This document shows positions 11,565-56,784 of a stretch of 57,736 nt of DNA, piece after piece (the first letter of the stretch is position 1; each line of letters begins with the position of its first letter). Position numbers and translations under genes: made by a program. The notes under the pieces are model-generated. The model made no database searches and had not been told where the DNA came from. It was given only the letters and a program-made list of their open reading frames with translations. The DNA is from Bdellovibrionales bacterium (GTDB taxonomy: Bacteria; Bdellovibrionota; Bdellovibrionia; Bdellovibrionales; UBA1609), in the NCBI GenBank assembly GCA_020630675.1, contig JAHDIR010000016.1, positions 1-57,736 on the forward strand. The letters are read 5' to 3'.

Positions 11565-11915
11565 TGGTGGAGGCGGCGGGAGTTGAACCCGCGTCCGCAA
11601 GAAATCCACTTTAAGGCGCTACATGCTTAGTCTGTGTTTTTAGGCGATATAAAAACCTCCACAAACAAAGTTTTTTAAATCCCTCCCTCAATAAATTTAA
11701 ATGTTAAACCTTGAAGAAATCAATTCAACATCGAGAGATCTAAGGTGACGACTTACCAAGCCCGATCTCACGGCAAGGTTTGTCGTAGCGGCACTTAGGC
11801 TGCTAAAGCATATTCGCTATCAGCAAATATAAAGTTGCCCGTTTTTAACGAGGCCCTCGGGCGCCCCGGCATGCTCCTTAAGCTTCATGACCCACGTCGA
11901 AGCCATTTCGCCCCC
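11565..11915 (-). ncRNA. ssrA: Transfer-messenger RNA (tmRNA)
   Basis: The 5' end (11915 downwards) begins GGGGGCGAAATGGCTTCGAC, close to the conserved tmRNA start. The 3' end, upstream of 11565, gives GGGTTCAACTCCCG (T arm), then CGCCTCCACCA. GGGGGCG pairs with CGCCTCC as a seven-base acceptor stem with one G-U, and CCA is encoded. A tag reading frame ends in ALAA-stop as expected. tmRNA rescues stalled ribosomes and marks nascent proteins for degradation with SmpB. The 3' end faces the recombinase/XRE segment, a known preferred site for integrating elements. Confidence 0.95.
11795..11839 (-). other. tmRNA-encoded proteolysis tag
   Basis: Reading in the minus direction from GGC at 11839 gives GNFIFADSEYALAA and TAA (11797-11795). 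The ALAA end matches ClpXP-recognised tags. The resume codon is inferred from the preceding GTTAAAAACG context and tag lengths in other bacteria, so the first residue could be one codon off. Confidence 0.7.
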
Positions 11916-39558: not shown

Positions 39559-41646
39559 ATGTCTAATGAAAACAGCGGTTCAAATTACACCGAAATGTTC
39601 AAAACGTGGAACAATGTTCGGGAGTATCAAGATTTAAATTGGACGGGCAACTTCACGGACTATCTAAATCTAGTAAAGAAAAATCCGAAAGTAACAAGAA
39701 ATGCATTCCAAAGAATGTATGACATGATTATGGAAAAAGGAACTAAAGACTACGTTGATGTAAAAAAACAGATGGTTCATTATAATTTTTTTGATGATGA
39801 AGCTCATGGTGGTAAAGACGCTGTGTTTGGTATGGACATATCTTTAATGAAACTTGTAAATGTTTTGAGAGCTGCGGCTTTAGGTTACGGTACAGAAAAG
39901 CGTGTGATACTTTTGCACGGTCCTGTCGGTAGTGCAAAGTCGACAGTTTGCCGAATGTTAAAAAAGGGATTAGAGGCATACTCAAAAACAGACAACGGTA
40001 TAATGTATACCTTTGAGTGGATTGATGAAAAAGGTGAGCACGAAGAAATTTTTGGAAAAGGTGTACGTGTCTTTCCTTCCCCAATGCACGAAGAGCCGTT
40101 GTTATTAATTCCAGAAGATATGCGTAGTAAGCTTTGCGAGGAAATGAATCGTGGCTCTAAAGAAGATTTTAGAATAAATATTAAAGGGGAGCTATGCCCT
40201 CCAAGTCGTTTTATATTTTCTAAACTACTAGAAAAGTTTCACGGTGATGTTACAAAAGTGTTCGAGTTAGTGCGAGTGAAAAGACTTGTGTTGAGCGAGG
40301 CCGATCGAATCGGCATAGGGACCTTTCAGCCTAAAGATGAAAAAAACCAAGATAGTACTGAGCTAACAGGTGACATTAACTATCGAAAAATTGCTGAGTA
40401 TGGTTCTGATTCAGACCCTAGAGCTTTTAATTTTGATGGTGAATTTAATGTAGCTAACAGAGGTTTAGTTGAGTTTGTTGAGGTACTTAAGCTTGATGTC
40501 GCCTTCTTGTATGACTTACTTGGGGCTTCACAGGAGCATATGGTTAAACCTAAAAAGTTTGCTCAAACTTATATTGATGAAGTTATTATTGGACATACCA
40601 ATGAGCCAGAGTACAGGAAGTTACAAGACAATGAGTTTATGGAGGCCTTAAGAGATAGAACGGTTAAAATTGATATTCCGTACATCACTAAGCTGGAAAA
40701 AGAAATTCAAATTTATGAAAAAGACTTTAACTCAAGACGACTTAGAGGCGTGAGTATTGCACCTCATACTATCGAGATGGCTGCAATGTGGGCTATACTA
40801 ACACGTTTAGAAAAGCCTAAAAAAGCGAACCTCACTCGCATTCAAAAACTAAAACTATATGACGGGCGGACTTTGCCAGGTTACACCGAAGATAATATTA
40901 AAGAACTAAGAAAAGAGTCCAAGCGTGAAGGGTTAGACGGAATGTCGCCAAGGTACATTCAAGATAAAATTTCAAATGCTATTGTCATGGCTCAACAAAG
41001 TAACAGAGGTTCTGTGAATCCATTTATGGTGTTAAATGAGCTTGAATCGGGCTTAAAGCATCATTCTCTTTTATCGAATGAAGATCAAAAAGGTGATTAC
41101 CGAGAGCTTCTTGGGACGGTAAGACAAGAGTATGAAGAAATTATTAAAGCAGAGGTACAAAGAGCAATTAGCGCTGACGAAGGGGCTATGACCAGGCTTT
41201 GCGGCAACTATATTGATAATTTAAGGGCTTATACGCAAAAAGAAAAAGTAAAAAATCAGTTTACTGGCAAGGATGAAGAGCCAGATGAGCGTTTAATGAG
41301 AAGTATAGAAGAAAAAATTGAAATTCCAGAGTCAAGAAAAGATGATTTTCGTCGCGAAATTATGAACTACATTGGAGCCTTATCCTTAGATGGTAAAAAG
41401 TTTGATTACAAAACAAATGAGCGTTTACATAAAGCTTTAGAGAGAAAATTATTTGAAGACCAAAAAGATAGTATCAAATTAACTTCTTTAGTTTCCTCAG
41501 TTGCCGATAAAGATACTCAAGAAAAAATTGATATTGTTAAAACTCGGTTAATTAAAGATTTCGGTTATGATGAAGTTTCTGCCACAGACGTTCTACATTA
41601 CGTAGCTAGTGTTTTTGCTAGAGGTGATGTGAAAGAGAAAAAATAA
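39559..41646 (+). CDS. prkA: PrkA-type serine protein kinase (YeaG family)
   Basis: 695 residues. The Walker A motif is GPVGSAKST (121-129) in an AAA+ fold, with [20 protein letters not shown] and [21 protein letters not shown] in the conserved PrkA core; the C-terminal third is the kinase-like domain. PrkA/YeaG act in stationary phase, nitrogen stress or sporulation; some members have been reported as Ser kinases or AAA proteases. AAGGAGG lies before the ATG. yeaH starts two bases after the stop and spoVR directly after that: the classic three-gene operon. Confidence 0.95.
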
Positions 41647-41647
41647 T

Positions 41648-42745
41648 ATGTCTATTTTAAAGGACCAAAATCGATTTAAAGATATTATCCGTGGTAAAAT
41701 CAAGGATAACTTCAAGAAGTATGTTACTCACGGTGAAATGATTGGTAAACGGGAAAAAGAATATGTGAAAATTCCTGTGCCGTCTGTGGATATCCCTCGC
41801 TTTAAGTATGGTAAAAAACAACAAGGTGGAGTTGGTCAGGGGCAAGGACAACCTGGTGACAGTGTTGATGGCCCGGGTGAGCCTGGAAAAGGAGAGGCCG
41901 GTGACAAGCCAGGAGAGCATAACTTAGAAGTCGAAGTCACAATGGAAGAGTTGGCAGATATTTTAGGTGAGGCGCTAGAGCTACCTCGTATTGAGCCCAA
42001 GGGAAACAACAATATTGATGTTCAAAAAAATAAATACACCAGTCGTAACTTTGTGGGGCCCGATAGCTTACGCATGTTTAAGAGCTCTTATAAAGAGGCA
42101 TTAAAGCGGAGTATTGCTTGTGGTGATTATGACCCTGACAACCCAGTTATAGTTCCCATTCGCAGAGACATGAGGTTTCTTTCATCTAAACCTGTTAAAA
42201 AGCCACAGACAAAAGCTGTTGTTATTTATATGATGGATGTGTCTGGTTCGATGGGAGAAGAGCAAAAAGAAATTGTTCGCCTTGAGAGTTTTTGGATAAA
42301 TACATGGTTAACAAAAAACTATAAAGGCCTTGAAACAAGGTTTATTATCCACGATGCAGCGGCCAGAGAAGTAGATGAAAAAACTTTTTTTTCAACCAGT
42401 GAATCAGGTGGAACCTTAATAAGTTCAGCTTATAAATATTGTAAAAAAATAATTGATCAAGATTACCCTTTGAATGAATGGAACATATACCCATTTCATT
42501 TTAGTGATGGGGATAATTGGAGCGGTGACGACACTAGGTTTTGCATTAATTTATTGAAAGAATTTTTCTTACCGAATGTAAATATGTTTGGGTATGGGCA
42601 AGTTGAAAGTAAATATGGAAGTGGTCAATTTTACCGTGACCTAGAAAAACAGCTACCCAATGATGAAAGAATTGTTCTAAGCCGAATTGAATCAAAAGAT
42701 AAAATTATTGATTCGATCAAAGATTTTTTAGGAAAAGGAAAGTAG
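41648..42745 (+). CDS. yeaH: YeaH/YhbH family protein (DUF444)
   Basis: 365 residues. A conserved N-terminal segment ([20 protein letters not shown]), a Gly/Pro/Gln-rich linker about 58-92, and a von Willebrand A-like domain with the MIDAS motif MDVSGSMGE (Asp197, Ser199, Ser201). In other bacteria it forms a set with PrkA and SpoVR, possibly as substrate or partner. It begins two bases after prkA and its TAG is directly followed by the spoVR ATG, so translation is tightly coupled. Confidence 0.95.
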
Positions 42746-44260
42746 ATGGGAAATTTAACACCAGAATTAGAAGCGGAAAGAAAAAAAATTTGTAAAATAG
42801 CTGCTGAGGCTGGTTTAGATTTTTTTGACACTATTTTTGAACTGGTGAGTTACAAAGAGCTTAATGCTGTTGCCGCTAGGGGAGGGTTTCCTGTGCGTTA
42901 CCCTCACTGGAAGTTCGGAATGGAGTACGAAAAACTATCTAAAGGTTATGAATTTGGATTATCAAAAATATATGAGCTCGTTATTAACACCGACCCTTGT
43001 TACGCTTATTTAATGGAAGGCAATGAGTTCATTGATCAAAAGCTAGTCATGGCCCATGTTTTTGGTCATTGTGATTTTTTTAAAAACAATATGTGGTTTT
43101 CCAAAACCAACAGAAAAATGGTTGATGCAATGGCTAATCATGCTACTCGTGTGCGTCGATATGTAGATCGCTACGGAGTAGACACGGTTGAAGACTTTAT
43201 TGATAAGTGTTTAAGTTTAGAAAATTTAATCGACCGTTATGCTCCATATACAAGTAGTGCTCAGGTTGTAGAAAAAGTAAACGCTGTAAATGGTTTGAAT
43301 TTACCAGTAGAAGACAGTAAAAAATTTACTGTAAATAAAGAGTATATGGAGTCTTTCATAAACCCTGTTGGTAGCTCTTCTCAAAGAGAAAGCCAGCCAC
43401 GCATTGAAACGGCCCCAAGTTTTCCGGCCAAGCCTGAAAAAGATATTTTATTATTTCTTATGCACAACGCTCCTCTAGAAGAGTGGCAGCAAGATGTTTT
43501 ATCTATTATTAGAGAAGAATCCTATTATTTTGTACCTCAAGGTATGACAAAAATAATGAATGAAGGATGGGCGTCTTATTGGCATTCAAAACTAATGACT
43601 GAAAAAATAATGGATGACAGTGAGATTATCGACTTTGCAGATAGGCACAGTGGAACTATGGCGATGGCTCCTGGTGGGTTTAATCCATATAAAATAGGTA
43701 TTGAGTTAATGAGAAATATTGAGGAAAGGTGGAATAAGGGTCAACATGGTCTTGAGTGGGCAGAATGCAAAGACCTTGATGCTAAAAAAAATTGGAACAC
43801 CAAAGCGGGGAAAGGCCGTGAAAAAATATTTCAAGTCAGACGAGATTATAATGATGTTACATTTATTGATGAATTTTTGACTGAAGAGTTTTGTGTTGAA
43901 AATAAACTGTTTGTTTATCAGTTTAATAAACAAAAAAATAAATTTGAAATCAACACGAGAGACTTTCCTTTAATTAAAAAGCAGCTTTTATTTCAATTAA
44001 CAAATTTTGGCCAACCTATTATTAATGTTGTTGATGCTAACTTTGAGAATAGAGGTGAGCTTTTGCTTGCTCATTTATTTGAAGGCGTTGAGTTACAACC
44101 AGATTATATGTATGAAACTTTAAAAAACCTTCAGTATATATGGAAGCGCCCGGTTAACATTGCTACAGTTATGGATAATGAGGGAAGATTTTTTAGGTTT
44201 GATGGAAAAGAGGTGAGTAGTATTGCCTTCAACGATTTACCAAAAAACGAAAGTGCTTAA
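42746..44260 (+). CDS. spoVR: SpoVR family protein (YcgB)
   Basis: 504 residues, normal length. YPHWKFGMEYEKLSKGYEFG, ELVINTDPCYAYLMEGN and VMAHVFGHCDFFKNN are typical SpoVR segments, with NEGWASYWHSKLM and APGGFNPYKIGIELMRNIEE later. SpoVR takes part in spore cortex formation in Bacillus; its biochemical activity is unknown. The ATG starts immediately after the yeaH stop. A two-component pair follows 107 bases on. Confidence 0.95.
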   Translation: MGNLTPELEAERKKICKIAAEAGLDFFDTIFELVSYKELNAVAARGGFPVRYPHWKFGMEYEKLSKGYEFGLSKIYELVINTDPCYAYLMEGNEFIDQKLVMAHVFGHCDFFKNNMWFSKTNRKMVDAMANHATRVRRYVDRYGVDTVEDFIDKCLSLENLIDRYAPYTSSAQVVEKVNAVNGLNLPVEDSKKFTVNKEYMESFINPVGSSSQRESQPRIETAPSFPAKPEKDILLFLMHNAPLEEWQQDVLSIIREESYYFVPQGMTKIMNEGWASYWHSKLMTEKIMDDSEIIDFADRHSGTMAMAPGGFNPYKIGIELMRNIEERWNKGQHGLEWAECKDLDAKKNWNTKAGKGREKIFQVRRDYNDVTFIDEFLTEEFCVENKLFVYQFNKQKNKFEINTRDFPLIKKQLLFQLTNFGQPIINVVDANFENRGELLLAHLFEGVELQPDYMYETLKNLQYIWKRPVNIATVMDNEGRFFRFDGKEVSSIAFNDLPKNESA

Positions 44261-51177: not shown

Positions 51178-51537
51178 TTAATCGTCAGTTTCGAGCTCGT
51201 CTTCAAGGTTTCTGATATCTTCAACATTGTCGACTTCCATTTTGTAAAGCCAACCATCATTGTAACAGTCTTCTTTGATGAGTTGTGGGTCTTCAATAAC
51301 GGCTTCATTCACTTCTACAATATGCCCATCTAAAGGTGTGTAAAGGTTAATTGAGCCTTGCTCAGTTACAAGTTCACCACAAACCTCACCAGGTACGACG
51401 ATAGCTCCATCATCAGGAAGCTCAACGGTAAAATCGTCAAGCTCATCCACACCTGTTTCGTTTATGCCAACTGTGATAACGTCTTCGTTAATTTGTAACC
51501 ACAGGTAATCCATATAAGTTATTAAATCTTCGTTCAT
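51178..51537 (-). CDS. GcvH-like protein without the lipoyl lysine, in a gln cluster
   Basis: 119 residues from ATG at 51537 (GAGG six bases before; an ATG at 51549 is weaker). It aligns with glycine cleavage H protein: YLWLQINEDVITVGINETG, ELPDDGAIVVPGE, LYTPLDGHIVEVNEA, then DPQLIKEDCYNDGWLYKM. At the position of the lipoylated Lys (ESVKAASxxYxP in other GcvH) it has TEQGSINLYTP, with Gln60 in place of Lys and no nearby Lys, so it should not carry lipoate. It lies 40 bases downstream of glnA in the same direction. A role as a non-catalytic adaptor in nitrogen metabolism is possible but unproven. Confidence 0.7.
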   Translation of the reverse strand: MNEDLITYMDYLWLQINEDVITVGINETGVDELDDFTVELPDDGAIVVPGEVCGELVTEQGSINLYTPLDGHIVEVNEAVIEDPQLIKEDCYNDGWLYKMEVDNVEDIRNLEDELETDD

Positions 51538-51577
51538 TCTAAGCCTCATGTTTTCTCAGCCAGGAGAGTTCAAAATA

Positions 51578-52993
51578 TTATAAGTCGTAGTATAAATAAA
51601 ACTCATAAGGAGTAGGGCGTTGTTGTAGAGGTAAAATTTCACTTTCAAACTTATAAGTGATCCATGCTTCAATTAGTTCCTCAGTAAACACATCACCTTT
51701 TAGTAGGTAAGCATGACTTTGACGTAAATTGTTCAAGGCCTCCTCGAGGGTTGCGGGCACAGAAGGTACTTTGGCTGCTTCCTGAGGTGATAACCCGTAG
51801 ATGTCTTTTTCTAAAGGGTCGCCAGGGTTAATTTTATTTTGTACGCCATCAATTCCTGCCATTAAAAGAGCGGCAAAAGAAAGGTAGCCATTGGCGCTAG
51901 GGTCTGGTGTACGAAACTCAATGCGTTTAGCTTTTGGGCTTGGTCCAGAGTTAGGGATGCGAATGGCCGCAGAACGGTTACGGTAACTATAAGCTAATTT
52001 AACAGGGGCTTCAAAGCCTGGTACTAAACGCTTGTAACTGTTTGTCGATGGGTTGGTGAAGGCACAATTAGAGGGAGCATGTTTTAAAACTCCACCAATG
52101 TAGTTAATGGCCATTTCAGATAAGCCGGCGTATTTGTCTCCAGCAAAAAGAGGCTTTCCATCTTTCCACAAAGACATATGTGTATGCATACCAGAGCCAT
52201 TGTCACCAAAAATAGGCTTAGGCATAAAGGTCGCTGTTTTGTTGTGACGTCGAGCTACATTTTTTACAATGTACTTAAACCACATAAGTTCATCGGCCAT
52301 TAAAAGCATTGAGTTAAAGCGAACACCAATTTCACACTGGCCCGCTGTGCTGACCTCATGGTGCTGGCGCTCAACAACGATACCTACTTTTTCAAGTTCT
52401 AAACAAATTTCAGTTCTAATATCATGCAGGCTATCCGAAGGAAGAGTGGGAAAGTACCCTTCTTTGTGTCTTGGTTTATAGCCTAGGTTGTTGCCACCTT
52501 CGTGGCGCCCGGAATTCCAAGAGGCCTCATCGGAATCAACTTGGTAAAAACCTCCAGAAGCAGTTTGTTCATAACGAACATCATCAAATATAAAAAACTC
52601 AGCCTCGGGTCCAAAGTAGGCTGTGTCGGCAATGCCTGTTGATTTTAAGTAATTAATAGCTTTTTGGGCCACTTGCCTTGGATCTCTATTGTAAGGGGCT
52701 AGGGTATCGGGTTGAGCAATATCGCAAATCAAGCTCAAGGTAGGAACTTCCATGAAGGGATCAATTTTGGCAGTATTGGGGTCTGGAATTACGAGCATAT
52801 CGGACTCGCTTATACCTTTCCAGCCTCTAAGGGATGAGCCATCAAAGCCCAGGCCTTCCTCAAAAGTTTCTTCTGTAAGTTGATGTAGGGGGATAGCAAA
52901 ATGTTGCCACATGCCGGGTAGATCAATAAATTTCATATCGACCATTTTAACATTTTTTTCTTTAGCAAATTCTATGACTTGGGTTGGGGTCAT
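51578..52993 (-). CDS. glnA: Type I glutamine synthetase
   Basis: 471 residues, typical GlnA. Key motifs: [23 protein letters not shown] near 50, [20 protein letters not shown] (here as [13 protein letters not shown]), [17 protein letters not shown] and [10 protein letters not shown]. The loop IYGLSPQ near residue 397 contains the Tyr corresponding to the adenylylation site, so activity is likely regulated by GlnE. It condenses glutamate and ammonia using ATP. Preceded by a PII gene (43 bases) and followed by the GcvH-like gene. Confidence 0.97.
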
Positions 52994-53036: not shown

Positions 53037-53459
<423 letters not shown>

Positions 53460-53576: not shown

Positions 53577-54047
53577 TTGAACCGAGATACTTTTTTTAAT
53601 ATTGTTTTGATTGAGCCGGAAATCCCTCAAAATACTGGTAATATTGGCCGGGTCTGTGTGGGGTTTAACTGTCATTTGCATCTTATTGGACCCTTAGGCT
53701 TTGAACTGACTGATAAAAACGTAAAACGAGCAGGTTTAGATTACTGGCCGCACCTTTCTTTGACCCAGTACGAAAATTGGCAAGAGTTTTTACCTACTGT
53801 GAATAAAAATATTTCAAATATGTACTTCATGACCACCAAGTCTCAAACCTCTCTGTATCATAAAAATTTCAAAAAGGGAGATTGGTTTCTTTTTGGGAAG
53901 GAAACCAAGGGGATTGATGAGGGAGTCCTTGCTGAATATTCCAGCCAAAACCTAACAATCCCTTTTCCGGGGCAGGTCCGAAGCTTTAACCTCGCCAACT
54001 CTGTTTCCATCGTGGCCTCTGAGGCCGTGAGACAACTAGACTTATAG
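53577..54047 (+). CDS. trmL: tRNA (cytidine/uridine-34 2'-O)-methyltransferase
   Basis: 156 residues, correct size for TrmL (YibK). SPOUT motifs: EPEIPQNTGNIGRVCVGF (motif 1), WFLFGKETKGIDEGVL (motif 2) and SFNLANSVSIVASEAVRQ (motif 3, trefoil knot). It methylates the wobble-base ribose of tRNA-Leu. Start is TTG at 53577 after GGGAG. It is divergent from glnB and 58 bases before secA, so it may be co-transcribed with it. Confidence 0.93.
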   Translation: MNRDTFFNIVLIEPEIPQNTGNIGRVCVGFNCHLHLIGPLGFELTDKNVKRAGLDYWPHLSLTQYENWQEFLPTVNKNISNMYFMTTKSQTSLYHKNFKKGDWFLFGKETKGIDEGVLAEYSSQNLTIPFPGQVRSFNLANSVSIVASEAVRQLDL

Positions 54048-54105: not shown

Positions 54106-56784
54106 ATGGATTTAAATGTACTTAAAAAATTATTCGGAACCAAACACGAACGCGACTTAAAATTAATGCGTCCAATGGTTAATGCTGTCAACGACCTTGA
54201 GTCTAAAATAAAACCTTTAACAGATGCCCAATTACAGGCTAAAACGGCTTACTTCAGAGAAAAGCTCGACCAAGGAGCTTCGCTGGATGATATTCAAGTA
54301 GAAGCCTTTGCTGTTTGTCGTGAAGCGGCCTGGAGGCAACTGGGCATGCGTCACTATGATGTTCAGTTAATTGGTGGCTATTGTCTTCATCAAGGAAAAA
54401 TTGCCGAAATGAGAACGGGGGAAGGTAAAACTCTCGTGGCGACTTTACCCACATATCTCAATGGTATTTCCGGAAAAGGTGTTCATGTAGTTACTGTAAA
54501 TGATTACTTAGCTAAACGTGATTGTGAGTGGATGGGGCAGGTTTATCGCTGGTTGGGTTTAACTACGGGAACCATCAGTAACGACCTTACCGACCAGCAA
54601 CGAAAAATCGCATATGGAGCCGATATTACTTATGCGACAAATAACGAGCTGGGTTTTGATTATTTGCGCGATAATATGAAGTTTGATTTGGCAGACTACG
54701 TTCAGCGCCCCCTAAACTACGCACTTATTGATGAATGTGATTCTATTTTAATCGATGAGGCCAGAACACCTTTGATTATTTCAGGCCCCTCTGAAGACTC
54801 CACAGAAAAGTACTATGAAATTAATAAAATTATTCCTCACTTAAAGTTAGAAGAGCACTTTACCATGGAAGAGAAATCCAAAACGGTTTCTTTAACAGAA
54901 GAAGGCAACCACAAGGCTGAAGAACTTTTAGGTGTAAATAACCTTTATGATCCAGAGCATATCGCCACGGTTCATCAAATTTATCAGGGTTTAAAAGCTT
55001 ACCATCTTTTTCATGTTGATAAAGACTATATGGTTAAAGATGGCGAGATTGTTATTGTTGATGAGTTCACAGGCCGTTTAATGTCGGGGCGTCGCTGGAG
55101 CGAAGGTTTGCACCAAGCTATTGAAGCCAAAGAAGGAATCACCATTAAAGGTGAAAACCAAACCCTTGCTTCTATTACTTTTCAAAATTATTTCCGTATG
55201 TACAATAAGCTTTCTGGAATGACTGGAACTGCCGAAACCGAAGCTGTCGAATTTAAAAAGATTTATGACTTAGATGTTTTAGTGATTCCCACAAATAAGC
55301 CGATTCAAAGAAAAGACAACGAAGACGTAATTTACAAAACAGATAATGCCAAATATATGGCTATTGCAAAAGATATCAAAGAGCGCTCTAAAACTGGCCA
55401 ACCTGTTTTGGTTGGAACCGTAAGTATTGAACGTTCAGAAAGAATTAGCCAATTGTTAAAAAAAGAAGGTGTGACTCATAATATTCTAAATGCCAAACAC
55501 CATGAAAGAGAAGCTGAAATTGTGTCTCAAGCAGGTGCAAAGGGTTCGATAACCATAGCTACCAATATGGCCGGGCGAGGAACTGATATTGTTTTAGGTG
55601 GAAACCCTGAATTTTTGGCCAAACGTGAGTTTAAAGAAGACTGGACTGAAGAGCAAAAAAATGAGTGCTTAGCTAAATATGAAAAGCTTTGTCAGGAAGG
55701 TAAGGATCACGTCTTAAAAGCAGGCGGGTTATGTATTATTGGTACCGAACGTCATGAGTCTCGTCGTATTGATAATCAGTTACGTGGACGTGCTGGTCGT
55801 CAAGGTGACCCCGGTGAATCTTCTTTTTATTTATCTCTCGAAGATGATCTTATGAGAATTTTCAACGGCGAACGCTTACAAAAAATTATGACGACCTTAA
55901 ATGTTCCTGAAGATGAGCCAATTACGGCCAAGATGGTGAGTAGAGCTATCGAAGGGGCTCAGAAAAAAGTGGAAGGTCATCACTTCGACGTTAGAAAGCA
56001 TCTGTTAGAGTATGACGATATCATGAATCAACAACGTAAAAATGTTTATTCTATGAGAAGAATGGCTCTGGAAGATGGGAATATGGACCGTCTTATTTTA
56101 GATATGCTTGGCGATGTCACATCAGATATTCTTGACCGTTACGCCAACCCTGAGGTGAAAACGTCTCAGTGGGATATTTCGGGAATGAATACGGCTTTGG
56201 TGGCCCAGTTTGGTGTTCAGTTTGATGTCGAAAAAGCAAAAACTTTGGAAACAACAGAGCTAACCTCTTATGTGAGTGAGTTAGTTAAAGTTGCTTTTGA
56301 ACAACAAAAAGAAGCTTTGGGTGAGTACTTTGATCAAGTTCAAAAAATGGTTTTATTACAAACCATTGATCAGCGTTGGAAAGAGCATTTATCATTAATT
56401 GATCACTTAAAAGAAGGAATTAACCTACGAGCTTATGCGCAAAAAGATCCTTTGATTGAATACAAAAAAGAAGCCTTTAAAGCCTATGATCGACTCAATG
56501 ATTTAATGAAAGCCGAAACCATTGAAAAATTATTTAAAATTCAATTGGTTGAAAGGGATGAAAACTTATCTGAGAGAATGTTAGGAGATAATAACTTAGA
56601 TAACCTAGATTATGAGGGCGGAGATGAGCCAGAGCAGTTTTCTGGTCAAATGTCTTCGGCACAACAATCTTCTTCTCAAGGTTCGCAAATGCAGTTTAAC
56701 CGAGGGGAGCGAGGGCGACCTGAGGAAAAGTTAAATCGTGCCGAGCGCCGACGACGTGAAAAGGCCGCCAAAAGACGCCGCTGA
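54106..56784 (+). CDS. secA: Preprotein translocase ATPase subunit
   Basis: 892 residues. NBD1 has Walker A MRTGEGKTLVATLPT (102-116) and ALIDECDSILIDEARTPLI (Walker B/DEAD). NBD2 has ATNMAGRGTDIVLGG and RGRAGRQGDPGESSFYLS. The helical scaffold and wing domains are complete. The C-terminus ends in a basic tail (RAERRRREKAAKRRR) and lacks the CxCxSGxxxxxCH zinc motif that binds SecB in many SecA proteins. It drives Sec-dependent export of the many exported proteins here. Confidence 0.98.
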   Translation: MDLNVLKKLFGTKHERDLKLMRPMVNAVNDLESKIKPLTDAQLQAKTAYFREKLDQGASLDDIQVEAFAVCREAAWRQLGMRHYDVQLIGGYCLHQGKIAEMRTGEGKTLVATLPTYLNGISGKGVHVVTVNDYLAKRDCEWMGQVYRWLGLTTGTISNDLTDQQRKIAYGADITYATNNELGFDYLRDNMKFDLADYVQRPLNYALIDECDSILIDEARTPLIISGPSEDSTEKYYEINKIIPHLKLEEHFTMEEKSKTVSLTEEGNHKAEELLGVNNLYDPEHIATVHQIYQGLKAYHLFHVDKDYMVKDGEIVIVDEFTGRLMSGRRWSEGLHQAIEAKEGITIKGENQTLASITFQNYFRMYNKLSGMTGTAETEAVEFKKIYDLDVLVIPTNKPIQRKDNEDVIYKTDNAKYMAIAKDIKERSKTGQPVLVGTVSIERSERISQLLKKEGVTHNILNAKHHEREAEIVSQAGAKGSITIATNMAGRGTDIVLGGNPEFLAKREFKEDWTEEQKNECLAKYEKLCQEGKDHVLKAGGLCIIGTERHESRRIDNQLRGRAGRQGDPGESSFYLSLEDDLMRIFNGERLQKIMTTLNVPEDEPITAKMVSRAIEGAQKKVEGHHFDVRKHLLEYDDIMNQQRKNVYSMRRMALEDGNMDRLILDMLGDVTSDILDRYANPEVKTSQWDISGMNTALVAQFGVQFDVEKAKTLETTELTSYVSELVKVAFEQQKEALGEYFDQVQKMVLLQTIDQRWKEHLSLIDHLKEGINLRAYAQKDPLIEYKKEAFKAYDRLNDLMKAETIEKLFKIQLVERDENLSERMLGDNNLDNLDYEGGDEPEQFSGQMSSAQQSSSQGSQMQFNRGERGRPEEKLNRAERRRREKAAKRRR

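Follow-up and report, generated by a model that had tools for sequence, protein, structure and literature searches.

Several paralogues of the glycine cleavage H protein (GcvH) are already known outside glycine cleavage. GcvH-L of Streptococcus pyogenes is lipoylated and is linked to a macrodomain-sirtuin operon. LbpA of the sulfur oxidisers lies in a gene cluster of its own, and the lipoyl lysine is kept in all 95 LbpAs (PMC6067878). Simiate/Abitram (FAM206A), a eukaryotic protein about 20% identical to GcvH, is also placed outside glycine cleavage (PMC3859600). Two further GcvH-like families have been named, the chlamydial not_gcvH (TIGR03077) and GcvH_rel_desulf (NF045810). The gene reported here, designated h, adds to this known fold family a fixed loss of the lipoyl lysine. 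It lies in the window, i.e. the whole stretch of 57,736 nucleotides of Bdellovibrionales DNA that was analysed, with the following features:

51178..51549, minus strand: h, GcvH-fold protein without the lipoyl lysine; 123 aa, or 119 aa if translated from ATG 51537, the likelier start
51358..51360, minus strand: CAA, coding for Gln where GcvH has the lipoyl lysine, in h (from sequence and alignment)
51578..52993, minus strand: glnA, type I glutamine synthetase (GS), directly upstream of h (TIGR00653, 657 bits)
53037..53375, minus strand: PII signal protein (glnB/glnK type), upstream of glnA (profile matches)
53577..54047, plus strand: TrmL/SpoU-type RNA methyltransferase, divergent, conserved neighbour of the slot
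54106..56784, plus strand: secA, conserved neighbour of the slot
39559..44260, plus strand: PrkA-DUF444 (YeaH)-SpoVR cluster, conserved in many relatives, where it flanks h on the side away from secA

Two candidate starts are available to h, ATG at 51549 and a second ATG at 51537, which is favoured by the family alignment and has GAGG six bases upstream. As glnA ends at 51578, the gap between the two genes is 28 nt from the first ATG and 40 nt from the second, the latter being the distance given in the preliminary description; PII, glnA and h indeed form one run on the minus strand, the cluster recognised there. A scan round the h locus gave 7 promoter-like sites against 5.3 expected and no terminator-like sites, and thus no evidence that h is transcribed separately. 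A PADLOC defence search gave no match. Elsewhere in the window, a tmRNA gene with the tag ADSEYALAA was noted at 11565-11915.

Fold and family assignment

The GcvH fold pattern read earlier from the sequence was borne out. The h protein matched Pfam GCV_H (PF01597) with an E value of 1.3e-23 (83.6 bits, cut-off 22.2), and its AlphaFold model, built on a 41-sequence alignment (pLDDT 89.8, pTM 0.80), had GcvH 3mxu as its best PDB match (Z 17.4, rmsd 1.9, 116 residues). GcvH-L (PDB 5a35) is also alike in fold (Z 13.4, 19% identity), and biotinyl/lipoyl domains ranked below the GcvH group, at Z of about 7.5. The core motifs W, G, P, G, E-V-N and G-W-L are common to h and GcvH. The two proteins differ in median net charge, -32.5 for h vs -16 for canonical GcvH, and many Bdellovibrionaceae copies of h end in a C-terminal run of Asp/Glu.

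Although alike in fold to GcvH (PF01597, TIGR00527) over its whole length, h has neither gcvT nor gcvP as neighbour, lacks the Lys, and scores below both NCBIfam GcvH equivalog cut-offs (79.8 vs 117 and 71.9 vs 115.85). It is not a member of the chlamydial family (44 bits vs a cut-off of 144) or of GcvH_rel_desulf (36 bits vs 150), and its relatives likewise fall below these two curated cut-offs. We found no curated model for h or its relatives, and a search of the literature on Bdellovibrio gcvH/glnA and on Lys-less GcvH paralogues found no paper on the h family. Annotation based on fold alone would name h gcvH, though the usual lipoylation site is absent in every member.

The lipoyl-lysine site and glycine cleavage

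When h was aligned to 3mxu with phmmer, the ESVKAA Lys lay opposite a Gln of h, numbered Gln64 from ATG 51549 and Gln60 from ATG 51537; the preliminary description has the latter number. We found Lys at this site in 0/68 h proteins examined vs 34/34 gcvT-linked GcvH proteins, and none of the homologues beside glnA keeps it. The residue is Asp in 33 of the 68, Gln in 15, Glu in 10, Ser in 5 and Asn, Thr or Gly in the remainder. As Lys is absent from all 68 and the residue in its place varies, it is the loss of Lys that is fixed and not the Gln, on which the earlier emphasis was misplaced; a new functional role for Gln was ruled out, the site being mostly Asp across the class. The next residue is Gly in 93% of h, followed by Pro in 57%, and the hairpin tip that bears the lipoyl-lysine arm in GcvH has, to judge from the sequence, probably been replaced by an ordinary turn. 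Modification of another Lys or Cys was considered and appears to be excluded, since no other Lys is conserved and the Cys of VCGE is Ile, Leu or Val in many Bdellovibrionaceae copies. To judge from these sequences, h is for good beyond lipoylation at the usual site with its fold retained, whereas the lipoyl Lys is strictly conserved in LbpA.

Presence of h and of the other genes was called from profile scores in a search covering genomes within the phylum, with a class set of 120 Bdellovibrionia genomes, each at least 85% complete and several of them draft assemblies; h was found in 102 of the 120. The loci read fall into two clean sets, gcvT-linked GcvH, which always has the Lys, and h by glnA and/or secA, which never has it. 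The genome of the window has GcvP and, on another contig directly behind gcvT, a separate canonical Lys-bearing gcvH, its sole further GCV_H gene; it was thus ruled out that h is the main GcvH, mis-annotated. A scan of genome contigs returned a single relative, a 74% identical copy. In addition, h is present in one genome (G101) from which GcvP and a second GcvH match are both absent and in another (G059) from which GcvP is absent. These data support the conclusion that h is not a glycine-cleavage carrier, and in this respect the earlier interpretation holds.

It could also be supposed that h acts as a decoy in glycine cleavage or lipoylation, or regulates them, competing with GcvH for the P, T or L protein, LipB/LplA or LipA while accepting no lipoate. 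The GcvH fold and the Glu three residues before the lost Lys, kept in 71% of h, would suit such a role, as would the presence of GcvP in nearly all h-bearing genomes. However, nearly every genome of the class has GcvP (116/120), so that its co-occurrence with h tells little, and the two exceptional genomes above have h without it. Moreover, most positions conserved in canonical GcvH alone, outside the core, are gone from h, and no gcv gene adjoins h in the loci read. We consider a decoy of this kind unlikely.

Gene order and glutamine synthetase

The link with glnA, noted first in this one genome, is conserved across families: of the 62 genomes having both genes, 60 have h directly after glnA. 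Neither of the two outcomes named in the preliminary description as refuting it was observed. The two exceptions, G054 and G113, carry the genes on separate contigs. The gap, measured in 59 cases (in G025 the locus is at a contig end), has a median of 105 nt, with 48 cases within 200 nt and 7 with 0.9-2.9 kb between the genes. The wider order in the class is secA-trmL-GGACT, PII-glnA-h, SpoVR-DUF444-PrkA, and the last cluster (39559-44260 in the window) stays close to secA in much of the class.

Such close linkage on the same strand would be expected if h were a regulator or subunit of GS (or of PII), made from one transcript with GlnA and binding and tuning the enzyme. Co-occurrence of h with type I glnA, which was found in 67/120 genomes, is also slightly above expectation (62/67 genomes with type I glnA vs 40/53 without; p 0.02 in a 2x2 test that ignores kinship). 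However, those 40 genomes have h and no type I glnA, and among 41 genomes that carry h but lack type I glnA, P-II was absent from 35 and weak in 6. The slot is kept without glnA, h lying by trmL/GGACT in 27/29 such loci (exceptions, L167 and L178). Conversely, five genomes (G039, G046, G055, G005 and G028) have PII-glnA by trmL or secA and no h. These data suggest that h and PII-glnA entered or left the slot independently of each other, which makes a functional tie of h to type I GS in particular unlikely. The GS adenylyltransferase GlnE, of the usual type, is present in the genome of the window and also counts against regulation of GS by h, which we regard as improbable. Nitrogen control, the new role proposed in the preliminary description, is probably not the role of h, which persists in the same slot and under similar selection (see below) without type I GlnA and mostly without PII.

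A GSIII-length frame was found in 25 of 27 checked h-bearing genomes without type I glnA (one of the 27 being less than 85% complete). The presence of GSIII domains was confirmed for L165, and BLAST confirmed it for L207-L211. Type III GS is thus present in all but a few of these genomes, and in one of them (G081, locus L165) h precedes GSIII by 104 nt, which hints at a tie of h to type III GS. If the Lys-less fold had been re-used as a cofactor-free regulator binding GS of either type, type I by glnA and type III elsewhere, this would represent a previously undescribed form of GS control, but GSIII lies away from h in the other 24 genomes with a GSIII-length frame and we think this idea very doubtful. 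As a separate observation, about 40 of the 120 genomes combine h with a lack of type I GS and, mostly, of PII, and those checked have type III GS; type I GS and PII therefore appear to have been lost or gained together.

The genes that remain round h when PII-glnA is absent, i.e. PrkA-DUF444-SpoVR, GGACT, TrmL and SecA, raise the question of whether h serves the PrkA-DUF444-SpoVR stress cluster or one of the others. However, SpoVR is out of reach of h in the Bdellovibrionaceae loci, GGACT is absent from several h-bearing loci including that of the window, and the f5 genomes retain all these neighbours without h, leaving little likelihood that h works for any of them.

Origin, selection and a proposed role

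A first search covered 59 genomes from the taxonomic family and order, of which 58 gave matches. In a tree of 93 rows, canonical GcvH, together with the third copies described below, was supported at 100/99, as was an outlying group of GcvH paralogues from other classes of the phylum, and all h rows fell on one side of a branch, though its support was low (57/27). A single origin of h is likely from this topology. The h protein of L179, from a genome that lacks type I GS, is 78% identical to that of L163, from a Bdellovibrio with h beside glnA, vs 73% for two glnA-side copies (L163 and L170). The dN/dS of h was about 0.03-0.04 next to glnA and about 0.02-0.15 in lineages lacking type I GS, and purifying selection on h is similar with or without type I glnA. 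Class-wide conservation and dN/dS rule out a chance or degenerate ORF.

From fold and charge together we infer an adaptor role. With a probability of about 0.55, h is a Bdellovibrionia-specific, cofactor-free, very acidic adaptor of GcvH fold, predicted to bind a partner protein. It would be a paralogue of GcvH in which lipoylation was lost for good and the fold kept, and which works without cofactor; the small acidic protein may bind its partner non-covalently, as apo-carrier domains can. Its position behind glnA would reflect an inherited gene order, secA-trmL-GGACT-(PII-glnA)-h-SpoVR-DUF444-PrkA, rather than a common task, though the two genes are probably co-transcribed where glnA is present. 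The close spacing of glnA and h, which would also fit a functional link, was counted against the adaptor reading. The pair offers a clean case of tight, conserved gene linkage without implied common function. As h is kept under selection in a whole class of predatory bacteria, its deletion could reveal a role for a carrier fold that has no cofactor.

Other GcvH copies were encountered in the phylum. Another Lys-less paralogue is present in other classes (L191-L194 and L198-L200), with Asn, Ser, Gln or Asp at the site. In L191, L192, L193, L198 and L200 there is an overlap between its gene and the start of the following frame, and a HisKA domain was confirmed in that frame in L193, L198 and L200; a coupling of the GcvH fold to a histidine kinase would merit a look of its own. 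MiaB or an Mrp/NUBPL ATPase lies near this paralogue in some loci. In family f20, a sister paralogue (L188-L190, L196 and L197) keeps the Lys (EGEKQNFEL) and lies near cytidine deaminase and pyrimidine phosphorylase genes. Bdellovibrio also has a third GcvH copy (L087:4986-5393 and L091), in one case with the lipoyl Lys replaced by Arg (ESVRQIHDL), although this copy scores above the NCBIfam GcvH cut-off.
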